Below, one piece after another: positions 281 to 62,934 of a stretch of DNA of 64,000 nt. The position numbers and the translations under genes were made by a program. The notes under the pieces are model-generated. The model searched no databases and was not told the DNA's origin. It worked only from the letters and a program-made list of their open reading frames with translations. Within the stretch, counting starts at the first letter, position 1, and every line of letters begins with the position of its first letter. Origin of the DNA: a virus; the IMG/VR virus record IMGVR_UViG_3300025012_000045, positions 1 to 64,000 of that record; one strand, written 5' to 3'.

Positions 281-607
281 TCACTCTGGTATAATTTTTT
301 TTATATTATTAAATTTCCATTCTGTAGAAGTATATCTATCATTATGCGCAAATTCAATATTATTAATTTTATATTTTCTTAATATATGACCAATAAATTC
401 TAAAAACCATTTATCTAAAGTAACCCATTCATAATCAAGTCCAAACCTATCTGCAAATTTTCTTTTTATACCTTTCTGTGAATCAATATAATACCCCCTG
501 CAAATTTTATCATCTTCAAATAACGAGAATTTTCCTCCAATAATATCAAATCCTTTTGAATCTACATAACTTTTGATTTCCTCTTTACATTTTTTTGGTA
601 ATCTCAT
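281..607 (-). CDS. Hypothetical protein, 108 aa
   Basis: I do not recognise this family. It is a soluble, charged protein with an aromatic-rich C-terminal half (WVTLDKWFLEF, later EWKFNN) and no membrane segment. It is the last gene of a three-gene minus-strand operon. Its ATG overlaps the TGA of the HAD phosphatase gene (ATGA), so translation is probably coupled. It ends 28 bases from the convergent TnpB gene. Confidence 0.7.
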   Translation of the reverse strand: MRLPKKCKEEIKSYVDSKGFDIIGGKFSLFEDDKICRGYYIDSQKGIKRKFADRFGLDYEWVTLDKWFLEFIGHILRKYKINNIEFAHNDRYTSTEWKFNNIKKIIPE

Positions 608-1170
608 AATAATTTTTCAATTTTTTCAATAGTTTCTTTTAATAATTTATTATTAAATCCATTTTTAAATTCGGTTTTTATACAATGTTTTTTATCAATG
701 TATTGAATAATATCATAATTAATATCATCATCAATAACCATGTAAATTGAATTTTCTTTATCATTATCTTTTAACCATTGTAAAATTTCCTTCCCCCTGG
801 GGCTGTCATGTAATCTAACTCTGTCTGTTTTTCCAATAATATTTGTTAAATATAGACCTTTGATATTGAATAAATCTTTTAATTCTTCAATTGTTCTTCC
901 TATTCTCCACGTACTTGAAATAACATAATTAACAATATATCCCTGTTCGTGGAAATATAATTGTAATTTATGGATGTTTGAAATACAATTTCTATCAAAG
1001 GGCCAATATTTCATAGACGTATTAATGAACGGTAAATTTTTTCTCTTTAATATTTCATTGAACTTGGTGGTTGGTTTTTCACCCATGTATTCTTTCCATA
1101 AATCATAAATGGAATTATTTGTTGCAATAACCCCATCAATATCCAAAAATATTATAATTTCTTTTTTCAT
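604..1170 (-). CDS. HAD-superfamily phosphatase, RNA-repair type
   Basis: A 188-residue protein with the HAD signature: motif I FLDIDGVIA near residues 8-16 (nucleophile Asp and acid/base Asp), motif II in ISSTWR near residue 85, and an acidic motif MVIDDDI near residue 143. Spacing and size resemble the small HAD domain found in Swiss-army-knife RNA-repair proteins and in phage 3'-phosphatases. The likely activity is removal of phosphate from nucleic-acid ends or nucleotides. It is coupled to its neighbours on both sides by ATGA overlaps. An RNA ligase is encoded at 61930-62934, which makes an end-healing role plausible, but that is inference. Confidence 0.75.
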   Translation of the reverse strand: MKKEIIIFLDIDGVIATNNSIYDLWKEYMGEKPTTKFNEILKRKNLPFINTSMKYWPFDRNCISNIHKLQLYFHEQGYIVNYVISSTWRIGRTIEELKDLFNIKGLYLTNIIGKTDRVRLHDSPRGKEILQWLKDNDKENSIYMVIDDDINYDIIQYIDKKHCIKTEFKNGFNNKLLKETIEKIEKLL

Positions 1171-4805: not shown

Positions 4806-4811
4806 ATGCTA

Positions 4812-4842
4812 TTGACTTTTTAAAATATTATGTTTATCTTTG
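4812..4842 (+). promoter_or_regulatory. Bacteroidota-type promoter, duplicated at 45281
   Basis: TTGAC (4812-4816), 18 bases, TATCTTTG (4835-4842). About 55 bases around it are nearly identical to 45273-45335. Here no gene follows on the plus strand: transcription would run into the attC-like structure and antisense to the tRNA. Confidence 0.7.
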
Positions 4843-4936
4843 TATTATATATTAAAAAAATAACGTTTTAAGGGTTTATGAAGTTGGGGTTTAAAAATTC
4901 AAATGATATTAATGAAAACATAATGTAAAAAAATAT

Positions 4937-5048
4937 TTTCCTGGACGGATTTGAACCGACATCTTCCTCTCAGTCTCGTAGTATCTTTTAAAAAGGATAT
5001 TATTAAAATTAAACAAAGAGGTGTTTTATCCGGTTAAACTACAGGAAA
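4937..5048 (-). tRNA. tRNA gene with a 46-nt anticodon loop (39-nt insertion)
   Basis: The minus strand folds as a tRNA: 7-bp acceptor TTTCCTG/CAGGAAA with no mismatch, D arm GTTT/AAAC around a GG-containing loop, anticodon stem CCTCT (5021-5017) with AGAGG (4970-4966), and a T arm with TTCAAAT loop and one T-T mismatch. The anticodon loop (4971-5016) is 46 nt instead of 7 and contains an internal hairpin (TATC..GATA with T and A runs). The anticodon cannot be assigned with confidence. No CCA is encoded. It has its own promoter 16 bases upstream. It may be an intron-bearing tRNA, an inactivated gene or a tRNA-like RNA. Confidence 0.65.
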
Positions 5049-5064
5049 ATATTTTTTTATTTCA

Positions 5065-5095
5065 CAAAGATAACTGTTTAAAATGAAATTGTCAA
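5065..5095 (-). promoter_or_regulatory. Promoter of the interrupted tRNA gene
   Basis: On the minus strand, TTGAC (5095-5091), 18 bases, TATCTTTG (5072-5065). The tRNA 5' end at 5048 is 16 bases downstream, a normal distance for a short 5' leader. Confidence 0.75.
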
Positions 5096-8165: not shown

Positions 8166-8816
8166 TTATTTACGATATTTACTCAATATTTCAGCAGTTT
8201 CTTCACCAATTCTCTGCCAATCTTCTTCTGTTAAAGGTATTGGAACAAACTCTTTTTCACTTTCCTTTATTTCTTGTTTTGTTTTTTCAACAAATTTCCA
8301 GAATTTTCTTCCTGTTAATTTATTTATTCCTTGTTCATCAATATTATATCCGTTTTTTAATATTAATTCAATTATATTTTCAATCCTTTTTAAACTTTCT
8401 CCTTCTAAATCTTCATATAATTCAATAAAAAATATGTCTGGCTTTTCCATTTCTATTAATTTTTTAAACATTTCATTTATTTTTGATACAAATATCCTTT
8501 GATTTTGTAATTGTTTTGGTATATATTGTTTTGCTTCATCTCTTTTATAAATAGTTTTTACTGTTTTATTATTAACATCAGAAACAAGAAAATAATATAT
8601 TAATTCATTATATCCTTTACTTTTATCAAATCGTATAATCAAATCTAAATAATGAGTTTCATTATCATCTGGATCTTCCCCAATTGTAATAAAGGATATT
8701 TTATGCTCTTTATCCACTTTAGAATCATTACTAAATTCTGGAGAAACTTGCATTTCTTCTAATAATAATTTAGGATAATAAATTAATTCTTTAATCCTTT
8801 TTAATTGACTTTTCAT
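8166..8816 (-). CDS. Paralog of virion-associated protein 54580-55281, 216 aa
   Basis: It shares with the 233-residue protein at 54580 a central block (YYFLVSDVNN, TIYKRDEAKQYIPKQL), the stretch LILKNGYNID and a helical C-terminus. The N-terminus LKRIKELIYYPKLLLEEMQ resembles the amphipathic MKELINYN-type peptide of other putative packaged proteins. It overlaps the methyltransferase gene by 26 bases. The function is not known; the paralog beside tail genes suggests a virion role. Confidence 0.65.
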   Translation of the reverse strand: MKSQLKRIKELIYYPKLLLEEMQVSPEFSNDSKVDKEHKISFITIGEDPDDNETHYLDLIIRFDKSKGYNELIYYFLVSDVNNKTVKTIYKRDEAKQYIPKQLQNQRIFVSKINEMFKKLIEMEKPDIFFIELYEDLEGESLKRIENIIELILKNGYNIDEQGINKLTGRKFWKFVEKTKQEIKESEKEFVPIPLTEEDWQRIGEETAEILSKYRK

Positions 8817-11217
8817 TTTTAAATTTTTCTCTCCAATACTCTAATCTTTCTTTACCAATATCAACATATTCTTGATTTATTTCACAAGCATAAATATTTT
8901 CTTCCTTATATCCAGATTTTATTGCACCGATTACTTCACTCATTACCCCAGCAAAGGGAATATATAATTTTTGATCACACTCTTTAGGCAATTTAAACAA
9001 ATTCAAAATTCTATAATTTAATGATATTGGTTTTAAACAAATATGTTTATTTTTTTCTTCATTTAATCCTGCATTTTTTTCTTCTCCAGATACTTTTTTA
9101 CAATAATTCAATAAATCATGTTCTCCTTCTTCATATCGACTTATTGGGTTTAACCACTCAAAAAAATCATATAATAAATACTTATTTGACCCATAAATAG
9201 AATGAAAAATTTTATGACAATTTTCACATAATGTTATTCCATTATTTATATATAATCTATATTCAGGATAAGTTGAATAAGGTAAAATATGATGAGCAAC
9301 TAAATCACCTTCGGATTTTTTATAACATTTTTGACAAATATATTTATCTCTATAGAATATTTCTTTTCTCCAAATATTATATTCATAGCCTTCTCTTTTT
9401 TTTATTCTATCTTCTTCTAATTTTTCTGAATTCCAATTTGGGCTAGTTTCACCAGTTAATCCAAACATAGGATTTTTATCACCAGATCTAAATAATTTCT
9501 TTTCACAAGAATTACACCTAAATAGTTCTTCTTTTTTTATAAAAAATCTCCATTGGGGGGTATCAATTTTATTACAATATTTACACATATATTTTATTCT
9601 AATTGAAGAATTTTCAGGTAAGTCCCAAACCTCTATCCAAATTTTAGTATTAAATGGAACTCTTATTCCATTACTTTTTGTTTTTCTTTTTGGTATAATG
9701 TATCCATTTTTAATATATTCTTCTATTTTTCTACATCCTCTGTCTATTCTAATTTCCACTTGCTTAGAAATTAAAAATTCTTCATCATTTTTATCACATT
9801 TATGTAACACTCTTGAACATCCACCACTATCTCCATAAGTTTCTAAAAGATATTTATTGTCAAACTTACCGTATATTCCTCTATCACTTTGATATTCCCC
9901 CTGTGTTTTATTTCTTTTATGTTTATCTGGAGACATATATCCAGATTTTAATATTCCAGACTGGGTATTAAGAATTTGGGAAGTGCCATTATCCACAAAT
10001 ACTTGAGCTGGATATCTTCCAGATTCATGTAATTTTATATCTTTACCTTCATATCCACCCTCATATACATTTTTTGCTGCCTTATCTGTTTTCCAGCTAC
10101 CTTTTCCACCTAATCTTGGATCATCAACTTCTGGGTTAATTGGTACACGGTTTTCATTAATATTTACAACACTAGGAGATATTGTTGAATCTTCGTTAAA
10201 AGATAATAAATCATTTAAAACAGAACCATTTTTACATGGTTTATGAAAAATCATAATTGTCTCAACACATTGTTTAAATGGGGCAACCCCATATTTAAAT
10301 GAATCAAAACATTTTGCTAAATCACTAGCTGGTAAAGTTATATCAAATTCTTCTTCACCAGAAAATGACCACACATTTCCTTTTGTTAATCCTGCCTTAC
10401 CCCTTCCAATTATTTCCCTTTCAAGTTCTTCAATATTATCAAATGGGGCACTTAATAATTCACATAATTTATTAAATTGTTCTATTGTTGGGGTAGTTTT
10501 TCCTGTTATCCAATTATGAACTCGTCCAGTCAATCCATCAGTTTTAGAAAGAAAATGTTTTGATATATCATTTTGATTTAAATTTAATTCTTTCATTCTT
10601 TTTTCCATCCACTTTCCAAACCAAACATAATTTTTTCCTCCTCTTTTATCAATCATTTTTCCAGCATCAACCCCTTTTGGCATTGAATTTATAAAATACC
10701 AATATAGTGATTGTTGAATTTCAAATCCATTTTTAACAGCATAATATTGAAATGCTGGGAGTTGTCTATCAATTCCATAAATTATTGTAAACCCTCCATG
10801 TTTTAATATTCTAAAACTTTCTTTAAAAAATAAATCAAGTGTATTTTCATCAAACCCATCCCATTTATTCATGAAATCTTTTGGTTTCCCTTCTATAATA
10901 AATCTTCCTGTTTCTTTATCTATGATCCATTTTGAAGATAAATTATAAGGTACATCACTAAATATAGTATTAAAATAAAAATCTGGATATGTTTTTATAT
11001 CATCAAAAACATTATCACATTTAATATTAACAGATTTATTTATTTTTTTAAATACAGGAATATTACCATGTTCTAATTCATATTCTTTATTATCTTTTAA
11101 ATTTTTCAACAAATACTTATCATTATCTAATTTTTTTAAATATTGCCCCTCATTACCTTTTTTAGTAATAAATAAATCACCTTCATTGAGGTCTTTTAAT
11201 AAAACTTGACTTTCCAT
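8791..11217 (-). CDS. DNA methyltransferase (amino-group type) with HNH insert
   Basis: An 808-residue protein. Catalytic motif IV is SDVPYNL near residue 88, and the SAM-binding motif I, IPFAGVMSEVIGA, is near residue 757, so the order is IV before I, as in beta-type N4-cytosine/N6-adenine methylases. Residues about 200-265 hold a helix-turn-helix-like segment (WMEKRMKELNLNQNDISKHF) common in related phage enzymes. Residues about 474-705 are an HNH endonuclease insert, in frame, between SRVLHKC and CKKVSGEEKNAGL, which are normally adjacent in this family. The enzyme could protect phage DNA or alter host epigenetics. Whether the interrupted protein works is unknown. Confidence 0.85.
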   Translation of the reverse strand: MESQVLLKDLNEGDLFITKKGNEGQYLKKLDNDKYLLKNLKDNKEYELEHGNIPVFKKINKSVNIKCDNVFDDIKTYPDFYFNTIFSDVPYNLSSKWIIDKETGRFIIEGKPKDFMNKWDGFDENTLDLFFKESFRILKHGGFTIIYGIDRQLPAFQYYAVKNGFEIQQSLYWYFINSMPKGVDAGKMIDKRGGKNYVWFGKWMEKRMKELNLNQNDISKHFLSKTDGLTGRVHNWITGKTTPTIEQFNKLCELLSAPFDNIEELEREIIGRGKAGLTKGNVWSFSGEEEFDITLPASDLAKCFDSFKYGVAPFKQCVETIMIFHKPCKNGSVLNDLLSFNEDSTISPSVVNINENRVPINPEVDDPRLGGKGSWKTDKAAKNVYEGGYEGKDIKLHESGRYPAQVFVDNGTSQILNTQSGILKSGYMSPDKHKRNKTQGEYQSDRGIYGKFDNKYLLETYGDSGGCSRVLHKCDKNDEEFLISKQVEIRIDRGCRKIEEYIKNGYIIPKRKTKSNGIRVPFNTKIWIEVWDLPENSSIRIKYMCKYCNKIDTPQWRFFIKKEELFRCNSCEKKLFRSGDKNPMFGLTGETSPNWNSEKLEEDRIKKREGYEYNIWRKEIFYRDKYICQKCYKKSEGDLVAHHILPYSTYPEYRLYINNGITLCENCHKIFHSIYGSNKYLLYDFFEWLNPISRYEEGEHDLLNYCKKVSGEEKNAGLNEEKNKHICLKPISLNYRILNLFKLPKECDQKLYIPFAGVMSEVIGAIKSGYKEENIYACEINQEYVDIGKERLEYWREKFKNEKSIKKD
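9103..9795 (-). mobile_element. In-frame HNH homing-endonuclease insert in the methyltransferase
   Basis: About 231 codons. It begins with a DNA-binding module (VEIRIDRG, then IRIKYMCKYCNKIDTPQW) that closely resembles the N-terminus of the endonuclease at 40580. Next come a NUMOD3-like NPMFGLTGETSPNW and an HNH core: CQKC, AHHILPYS, NNGITLCENCHKIFH. The reading frame of the methyltransferase stays open throughout. It is not a standard intein: there is no His-Asn before the downstream Cys. It could be a domain insertion, an intron whose ORF stays in frame, or a recent invasion. Confidence 0.7.
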
Positions 11218-21762: not shown

Positions 21763-21818
21763 AATATAATGAAATGAAAAGTAAATATTAAATTAAAAAA
21801 TATTTTTTTTAAAAAACA

Positions 21819-36267: not shown

Positions 36268-36298
36268 TTGACTTTGTCATTTATTATGTTTATCTTTG
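36268..36298 (+). promoter_or_regulatory. Promoter for the 90-aa gene
   Basis: TTGAC (36268-36272), 18 bases, TATCTTTG (36291-36298); the same spacing as the promoters at 4812, 45281 and before the tRNA. Confidence 0.75.
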
Positions 36299-45250: not shown

Positions 45251-45280
45251 TTAAATATAAAAAATTAATTATTTTTGCTA

Positions 45281-45311
45281 TTGACTTTTTCAAATATTAT
45301 GTTTATCTTTG
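45281..45311 (+). promoter_or_regulatory. Promoter of accessory island, near-identical to 4812-4842
   Basis: TTGAC (45281-45285), 18 bases, TATCTTTG (45304-45311). Drives the mini-ORF at 45344 and the gene at 45390. Confidence 0.8.
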
Positions 45312-45332
45312 TATTATATATTAAAAAAATAA

Positions 45333-45881: not shown

Positions 45882-46154
45882 ATGAAAAAAATAATTTACT
45901 TCTTTATACAAGTTATCACACATTTTAAAAAAACATTTCAGTATTTTGACAGACATTTTAAAAAAAGACGACAGAAAAGTGAATTTAGAAAAATGACATT
46001 AGACCATCTTGACACACTTAAAAGTTTACCAAAACAAAATAGAAAAGAATATTTAAAAAGATTGGATTATATGGAAAATACATTAGGATTTCTTGGACGA
46101 GATTTTGTAGCCAGAAAACGTTTCTTCAACAGACTTCAAAATTTCTTCAATTGA
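45882..46154 (+). CDS. Hypothetical basic protein, 90 aa
   Basis: Starts MKKIIYFFIQVITHFKKTFQ, sharing VITHFKK with two other genes and KMTLDHL with the 6035-6829 ORF. Very basic, helical. It overlaps the convergent gene 46083-46454 by 72 bases, which is unusual, so one of the two may be shorter or not expressed. Confidence 0.5.
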   Translation: MKKIIYFFIQVITHFKKTFQYFDRHFKKRRQKSEFRKMTLDHLDTLKSLPKQNRKEYLKRLDYMENTLGFLGRDFVARKRFFNRLQNFFN

Positions 46155-46454
46155 AATATAATCCATTAAAATTATGTTTTGGAATTCATATAAGTTTTTA
46201 GGTTTTATTTGTTCTTCAAAACGTCTCATAACATCACCGTTACGTGAAGATAAAATATTATAATACATATCATCAGTTATGACTGTAAATTTATTAGGGT
46301 TGTTTCTTTTGACAATATCAAAAATTTTATATGAATATGTGTCAAAATTTTTATTTTCAAACAAATTTCTTAACTCTTTGACTTGACTTTTATTAAAATA
46401 TTTAATACCAAATAAAAAACGATATTGTTTACTTGATTTAATTTTGTTAAACAT
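46083..46454 (-). CDS. Hypothetical protein downstream of a tRNA half, 123 aa
   Basis: Starts MFNKIKSSKQYRFLFGIKYF. An alpha/beta protein with FTVITDDMYYNILSSRNGDV in the middle. The ATG lies 15 bases after a truncated tRNA 5' half (46469-46500). Not recognised; possible links are to tRNA or a mobile unit that replaced the tRNA 3' half. Confidence 0.55.
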   Translation of the reverse strand: MFNKIKSSKQYRFLFGIKYFNKSQVKELRNLFENKNFDTYSYKIFDIVKRNNPNKFTVITDDMYYNILSSRNGDVMRRFEEQIKPKNLYEFQNIILMDYISIEEILKSVEETFSGYKISSKKS

Positions 46455-46468
46455 ATTAAAAAAATTAA

Positions 46469-46500
46469 AGGGGTGTTTTATCCGATTAAACTACAGGGAC
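46469..46500 (-). pseudogene. tRNA 5' half (acceptor, D arm, anticodon 5' strand)
   Basis: On the minus strand, GTCCCTG, TA, GTTT, GG-containing loop, AAAC, A, CCCCT: 32 nt, 28 identical to the 5' half of the tRNA at 4937-5048. After the anticodon-stem strand it continues TTAATTTTTTTAATATG into the ORF at 46454. No matching 3' half is visible in the next 800 bases. Either a decayed gene or half of a split or intron-bearing tRNA. Confidence 0.6.
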
Positions 46501-49312: not shown

Positions 49313-49447
49313 GTGTGATAACAAAGGGTTTAAGAAATGGTTTAGGATTGTGTGTGAGGTTATTTTGAATTATTCACTTACTTTTGTGTTTATATGACAG
49401 TTTTGTAATTTTTTAAACCACCACTTCTCAAACCCTTAAAACGTTAT
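49313..49447 (+). repeat. attC-like imperfect inverted-repeat structure (site II)
   Basis: 135 nt. Paired blocks: ATAAC (49318-49322) with GTTAT (49443-49447); AGGGTTT (49325-49331) with AAACCCT (49430-49436); GAA with TTC; TGGTTTA (49338-49344) with TAAACCA (49414-49420). Unpaired spacers lie between, as in integron attC sites. The outer flanks GTGTGATAACAAAGGGTTTA and CCTTAAAACGTTAT match site I. A promoter-like TACTTTTG box (49379-49386) sits in the variable centre. The 262-base interval 49249-49511 otherwise has no gene. Confidence 0.6.
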
Positions 49448-61929: not shown

Positions 61930-62934
61930 TTATTTTCTCGTATCATAATGTTTATTAATTATTTTAAACGATCCATTTTTGTGTTTTATAACAACCCCTT
62001 CAAATGGTATTTCATCAATTTTTGTAATTACTGAAGAATAGTTTTCAATTAATTCTTTTGATAACATAACATTTTCTTTCAATAAAGGAACAATTTCAAT
62101 GTCTAATTCCTTACAAACATCAATATAATAAAATTTTGATCCCTTATTTTCATATTTTTTTTCTTTTAAATTATAAACAGAAAAACATGCAAAGGATTTT
62201 TGTAATTTTGAATGTGGGTTATATTCTCCTTTTTGTATTCCTTGTCCATAACATTCACCCCTTAATGCTAAACTAACCTTATGTTTTTCACAAAAATTGA
62301 TTAATTTATCTTTTATTTTTGGAATGTGCAAAGTATAATTATTTATTGATTCTGGTTTAATTTCAAGATTTCTTCCACAAACACCAAAAACTTTATCGTC
62401 AAAATTATAATAAAATGTACAACTTGTTCCATCAATTTTTAATGTAACATCAACAATTTCTAAAAAAGGTATATTTTCAATATTTTCGTAACGTTCTTCA
62501 TCTGTTGGTCCAAGACCAAAAGGTAAATAACCTTTTGCTTGTAAATCTTGTGGTATTGGTGGTTCATATTTTATAACTCCAAGTTCTTTTGAATAATCTT
62601 TCCCCATTTCTAAATTTGATGGTAATAAATCTTTAATTAAATCAAGAGGAACAATAATCCCTTCTGACCACTCATTTCTTAATTTTATTGCCTTAACTCT
62701 TTTGGGGGAATATTTTTTATATGTTTCAGCCCATTTGGAATCCGGTAAAATTGTATCTGGCTGAATAAATATAATTTCATTTCCAGATTTATATTGTTCT
62801 TTTGGAATGATACATTGAAATCCAAGAACAGTTGCAATTTCCAATTTATCAGCATTTGGATGCTCTGATATTTTTTGAATTAGCTCAAGAGATGATAATT
62901 TTTTCATATTTAAATAATTATTTAAATTAGTCAT
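61930..62934 (-). CDS. RNA ligase, DRB0094/Rnl5-like
   Basis: 334 residues. The N-terminal OB-like region includes PNADKLEIATVLGFQCIIPK. Nucleotidyltransferase motifs: I KIDGTSCTFYY (active Lys near residue 185), III ALRGECYGQG, IV PFEGVVIKHKNG, V SFKIINKHYD. The enzyme joins RNA ends using ATP and an adenylylated lysine. With the HAD phosphatase at 604 it could repair tRNAs cut by host anticodon nucleases. It overlaps the upstream gene by 8 bases. Confidence 0.85.
   Translation of the reverse strand: MTNLNNYLNMKKLSSLELIQKISEHPNADKLEIATVLGFQCIIPKEQYKSGNEIIFIQPDTILPDSKWAETYKKYSPKRVKAIKLRNEWSEGIIVPLDLIKDLLPSNLEMGKDYSKELGVIKYEPPIPQDLQAKGYLPFGLGPTDEERYENIENIPFLEIVDVTLKIDGTSCTFYYNFDDKVFGVCGRNLEIKPESINNYTLHIPKIKDKLINFCEKHKVSLALRGECYGQGIQKGEYNPHSKLQKSFACFSVYNLKEKKYENKGSKFYYIDVCKELDIEIVPLLKENVMLSKELIENYSSVITKIDEIPFEGVVIKHKNGSFKIINKHYDTRK

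Follow-up and report, generated by a model that had tools for sequence, protein, structure and literature searches.

The tRNA-like gene

The window, i.e., the whole stretch of 64,000 nucleotides from IMG/VR record IMGVR_UViG_3300025012_000045, carries on its minus strand a tRNA-like gene (5048..4936, nt 1 at 5048, A73 at 4936) with 39 extra bases in the anticodon loop, and removal of these bases cannot give a normal anticodon loop. We tentatively place first, though at less than even confidence, the reading that the gene encodes an RNA of tRNA shape with probably no decoding function, whose likeliest task is to engage a protein recognising the tRNA body; a decaying tRNA gene is ranked second and an unusual intron third. 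As the gene shows, phage tRNA inserts cannot all be introns of the usual kind.

A scan of the 64 kb against 4227 Rfam families assigned the gene to RF00005 with 50.0 bits (E 1e-7), above the curated gathering score of 29 and within the score range of ordinary phage tRNAs; ARAGORN made no call at 5048-4936. The arms are well formed, as the preliminary description had claimed: paired were 7/7 positions of the acceptor stem (UUUCCUG/CAGGAAA), 4/4 of the D stem (GUUU/AAAC), 5/5 of the anticodon stem (CCUCU/AGAGG) and 4/5 of the T stem (GUCGG/CCGUC, mismatch U50xU64), thus 20 of 21 stem pairs were intact. The tertiary invariants U8, A14, A15-U48, G18G19, A21 and the UUCAAAU T loop are present together with A73, and the 3' CCA is not encoded. 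Nearest in sequence to the tRNA body was an Asp(GUC) tRNA, in a comparison set biased by the pattern that fetched it. The gene is the sole tRNA in the 100,074-base record, itself a fragment. Relatives for covariation were sought with UvsX and a neighbouring protein as queries, and only near-identical contigs were obtained; a two-sequence UvsX profile retrieved relatives at only about 40 % identity, with any tRNA in the records of two out of 35, one of which (G007) had two matches of 104-105 nt. No intronless allele was found among the relatives examined with these two proteins, and a search of the phage collection with the gene sequence returned short weak matches only.

Anticodon loop and exon joining

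The loop (4971..5016 on the minus strand, thus read from 5016 to 4971; placed by exact match) measures exactly 46 nt, i.e., 7 plus 39 extra nt, in agreement with the first account. The hairpin attributed to it there was given up, folding inside the loop being no better than in shuffles (P 0.67). In the best predicted fold of the gene, the anticodon stem is lengthened by U.G and GUUU/AGAC, the loop GUUU pairing with an AGAC close to the insert's 3' end. In the exon-join test, the two insert sides were joined at every position, and a 5-bp stem, U33 and a purine at 37 were required. Zero joins with U33 and R37 were obtained over all positions; U37 was always left, a base that 9 of the 719 ordinary tRNAs in the same loci carry there. 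The possible joined loops are UUGUUUA or UUGUUUG (anticodon GUU), UUGUCUG (GUC) and UUGACUG (GAC). The 7-nt loop of a decoding tRNA, with U33 and purine 37, arises neither directly nor after one excision. Elsewhere in the 100 kb, the insert had just short AT-rich matches.

Phage tRNAs with 'enigmatic introns' have been published for Prevotella Lak megaphages (Devoto et al. 2019, PMC6784885). Introns in phage tRNAs have kept this adjective since 2019, and the mechanism of removal is explained for none of them in the papers found; our literature search on phage tRNA introns or tRNA decoys returned nothing past the Lak work. The window gene shares with the Lak megaphages a well-scoring phage tRNA, an anticodon-loop insert that is not group I, an AT-rich genome and a phage ATP-grasp RNA ligase. 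However, the Lak tRNA-Gly(UCC), read from its sequence, has an 89-nt loop insert whose removal by a join at 37/38 gives CUUCCAA, whereas the window insert lacks a canonical join, so that excision does not restore the anticodon loop of an intronless allele; sequence similarity between the two was not seen. Archaeal and eukaryotic tRNA introns are alike in size and in their site near the anticodon, but the window record, a fragment, is without the splicing endonuclease (PF01974) and the fold is without a bulge-helix-bulge. Group I introns of bacterial tRNAs also interrupt the anticodon loop; the window insert, at 39 nt, has no catalytic core, and the Rfam scan gave only tRNA matches and no intron family over the insert, which upholds the earlier exclusion of this type.

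Promoter, outer stem and truncated copy

The dedicated consensus promoter of the preliminary description was recovered by pattern match as TTGAC-N18-TATCTTTG at 5095-5065 (5065..5095, minus strand) with no mismatch. At one mismatch or fewer, five matches lie in the window versus 0.21 expected, and none of 100 shuffles reached five. A convergent promoter of the same type (4812..4842, plus strand) reads toward the gene on the other strand. The 31-base promoter has a further copy at 36268 and another, with one mismatch, at 21785; a 57-bp promoter block is present in two copies with 98 % identity (4807-4863 and 45276-45332). The repeat AAGGGTTTATGAARTTGGGGTT forms inverted arms around the tRNA region (4870-4891, plus; 5115-5094, minus) and has a third, diverged copy at 49324 (plus).

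For the precursor, an uninterrupted outer stem of 18 bp is predicted (z -4.13), because the leader contributes 11 further pairs, with A73 and the trailer as partners. Its 5' arm, composed of leader and acceptor 5' strand, spans 5042..5059 and its 3' arm 4926..4943, both on the minus strand; with a T run closing the 3' arm, the stem resembles a symmetric terminator. Of the 710 ordinary phage tRNAs that the fetched loci contain, just 3 have ten or more extra leader-trailer pairs. RNase P and the trailer-trimming enzymes normally meet single strands at the ends of a tRNA. Here they would meet a long double strand, hence the outer stem should hinder end processing and routine maturation becomes less likely.

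A truncated second copy, holding the tRNA 5' half only, lies at 46467..46500 on the minus strand and is identical in 29 of 31 positions over nt 4-34, compared to 18-21 identities for shuffled queries. It has lost about four loop bases and the whole 3' half. The alignment of the two copies extends into the first insert bases, which suggests that the insert predates the duplication, although this part is AT-rich. A 3' half matching the second copy was searched for in the 100 kb and not found, thus a split tRNA is unsupported. The second copy leads into the start of the ORF 46454-46083; within 46083-46500 the tRNA 5' half stands as leader of this 123-aa ORF, which has no Pfam match and is situated directly downstream of a Cro-type HTH gene. 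The strand of the gene, the 11-bp leader-trailer pairing and the truncated copy at 46500-46467 were absent from the preliminary description.

Insert-bearing tRNA genes of other phages

Fifty-one well-paired insert-bearing tRNA-like genes were collected in a survey of viral contigs, a few of which are perhaps adjacent tRNAs that a single pattern took together. Canonical exon joins were obtained for 14 of them, among these one such possible case, L116, versus 0.48 expected from shuffles; this served as positive control for the join test. The survey splits phage tRNA inserts into canonical-joining and non-joining ones. The site of most joins was 28/29 or a neighbouring position, within the anticodon stem's 5' strand; the genes concerned are those for Asn, Lys, Pro, Asp, Thr and Gln, and further Gly and Pro genes, of L109, follow the same 28/29 rule by reading.

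One family of inserts, 41-61 nt long, was present in L102, L109, L110, L111, L125, L132, L141, L148, L157, L163, L175, L178, L212 and L235. Most of its members consist of an A/T-rich start, a helix of 5-7 bp, usually 2 nt, the motif RCAGCA and an A/T-rich end, and for most of them excision restores canonical anticodon arms, belonging to several isoacceptors; one 413-kb phage has three such inserts. The family pattern matched 18 viral contigs, of which L236 looks like chance, and in a larger body of genome DNA only four stretches, some plainly chance. The helix near the motif, located by direct search, gave modest single-sequence P values against shuffles (0.015-0.3), RNAalifold on a MAFFT alignment of the introns yielded no structure because the hairpin lengths differ, and Rfam at lax thresholds detected no other family across the introns at these loci. 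To judge from these sequences, the RCAGCA inserts are apparently an undescribed tRNA mini-intron. The window gene lies outside this family, in the remainder without canonical join. It has in common with L157, L175, L109 and others a short anticodon-arm insert in a phage tRNA, but the family inserts have a hairpin, sit mostly at 28/29 and combine helix, RCAGCA and canonical join, of which the window insert has none. A segment of the window loop (UAUC...GAUA, two bases, ACGAGA) was considered as a family member and rejected, as RCAGCA, a significant hairpin and a join are all missing. Apparently, the RCAGCA mini-introns are new and the non-joining genes almost unstudied, while the tRNA introns of Lak phages were already known.

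Several non-joining genes were found besides the window gene. L094 has a tRNA-like gene with a 10-bp anticodon helix, and the set L115/L099/L201 has an altered anticodon arm, both without canonical join, but a possible join exists in L099. In 49 Streptomyces phages (StarPlatinum, MH576965.1 88090-88209, L217:1501-1620, and 48 further records), a tRNA-like gene that is not annotated has a longer, altered anticodon arm and lacks a canonical join. Across eight sequences of this gene 17/17 tested pairs were kept; in five of the pairs both sides had changed, versus at most one in any slid control, a type of count that kinship inflates. The Lak tRNA-like genes L227:62-165 (Lak-C1) and L229:69-183 (Lak-B1) have a common CACCCAAATCCCAGGGATAAGAGAT, a variable hairpin and AGAAGATTTT; the exon-join test on L227 gave no canonical join. 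In form, the window gene resembles the non-joining genes; sequence homology was not seen. With the Streptomyces phage gene it shares a conserved tRNA body and an altered longer anticodon arm that lacks a canonical join, whereas sequence, host phylum and arm structure are different, and the Streptomyces phage gene stands among many tRNAs and the window gene alone.

We propose as a speculative generalisation, which we regard as possible rather than probable, that large phages harbour widespread, mostly unannotated non-decoding tRNA-shaped RNAs, acting as decoys or regulators and bearing a longer arm for the anticodon loop, and separate from these the mobile mini-introns of 41-61 nt. The non-decoding class as proposed comprises the window gene, L094, the L115 set and the gene of the 49 Streptomyces phages. 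If it is real, a set of phage RNAs escapes the standard tRNA finders, and host translation or tRNA-based defence may be their target. Small-RNA data could put both insert classes to the test; one of the two occurs in cultured Streptomyces phages.

Interpretation of the window gene

In the reading placed first, the promoter would drive the tRNA-like RNA and nothing else, and transcription would presumably stop at the T run. A normal tRNA body would form from the acceptor, D and T arms, a longer arm replacing the anticodon loop, and the RNA would be stable and remain unspliced. Through this body it may then engage a protein, for instance to divert a host nuclease that targets tRNAs or an enzyme of tRNA processing; the decoy for host anticodon nucleases raised in the preliminary description is compatible with the findings. 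That the RNA would not decode fits the lack of a U33/R37 join. The near-perfect cloverleaf speaks for a maintained RNA, as do its promoter and outer stem, and comparison among phages shows that genes with an altered anticodon arm and without canonical join recur. The retained stems alone are compatible with a young relic, too. Decay, raised already in the preliminary description, would mean that the insertion ruined the anticodon loop of a tRNA gene whose stems are too young to have drifted and whose promoter is left over. We consider this possible but somewhat less probable than a maintained RNA. It is plausible since the sister copy in the same genome, without its whole 3' half, displays the decay of the same tRNA; the mismatch U50xU64 and the failure of every join to rebuild a working loop are in line with it. 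One mismatch and otherwise intact stems do not reject decay, because by our own estimate neutral drift up to the divergence of the copies would break just about two pairs, versus one seen. However, the copy at 5048-4936 has kept 20/21 stem pairs and all the core invariants; its promoter is perfect, and so is the 11-bp extension of the flanking stem by leader and trailer. The alignment of the copies suggests, though within AT-rich sequence, an insert older than the duplication.

A short intron, cut from the loop by some nuclease and sealed by the phage RNA ligase to a tRNA with U37 (anticodon GUU, GUC or GAC), is in our view unlikely. The published Lak introns, one of them joining at 37/38, and the 14 canonical joins among 51 insert-bearing phage tRNA genes are precedents; the GUUU/AGAC pairing recalls an anticodon-intron pairing, though in our own reading of the fold it is no bulge-helix-bulge. 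The sealing by a phage ligase suggested earlier holds insofar as the genome encodes candidate partners which keep splicing possible, a DRB0094-like ATP-dependent RNA ligase (61930..62934, minus strand; PF09414, phrog_968, TIGR02306 below its cut-off) and a HAD_SAK_2 RNA-repair phosphatase-like protein (604..1170, minus strand; PF18143, E 1.6e-18), but it is weakened by the lack of a U33/R37 join. A normal spliced tRNA is less likely because every join leaves U37, because neither the tRNA-splicing endonuclease PF01974 nor RtcB was found in the record, a fragment, and because the outer stem is unfavourable to end processing. The resemblance of the body to Asp(GUC) tRNA, from a biased sample, would suit the intron, but A73 takes the place of the G73 usual for Asp or Asn. 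Very improbable, finally, is a locus whose main role is that of a terminator, or of some other stem at the DNA or RNA level, between convergent promoters, and which encloses a tRNA relic by chance: the symmetric A/T-tailed 18-bp stem does lie between the promoters 4812-4842(+) and 5095-5065(-), but a hairpin around about 100 nt is a poor terminator, and the intact D, T and anticodon arms with their core invariants would be left without explanation.

RNA-repair genes and host

RNA ligases are too common among large phages for their co-occurrence with the tRNA-like gene to count for much. The phage appears to be large and of a Bacteroidota type, a host assignment inferred solely from the promoter type and distant protein relatives. 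A methyltransferase-like protein (8791-11217, minus strand) has an internal HNH endonuclease domain, perhaps an inserted homing endonuclease or an intein. Beyond the window, in the phage's own record, a protein at L242:5255-5704 is macro-domain-like by eye and could belong with the RNA-repair genes.
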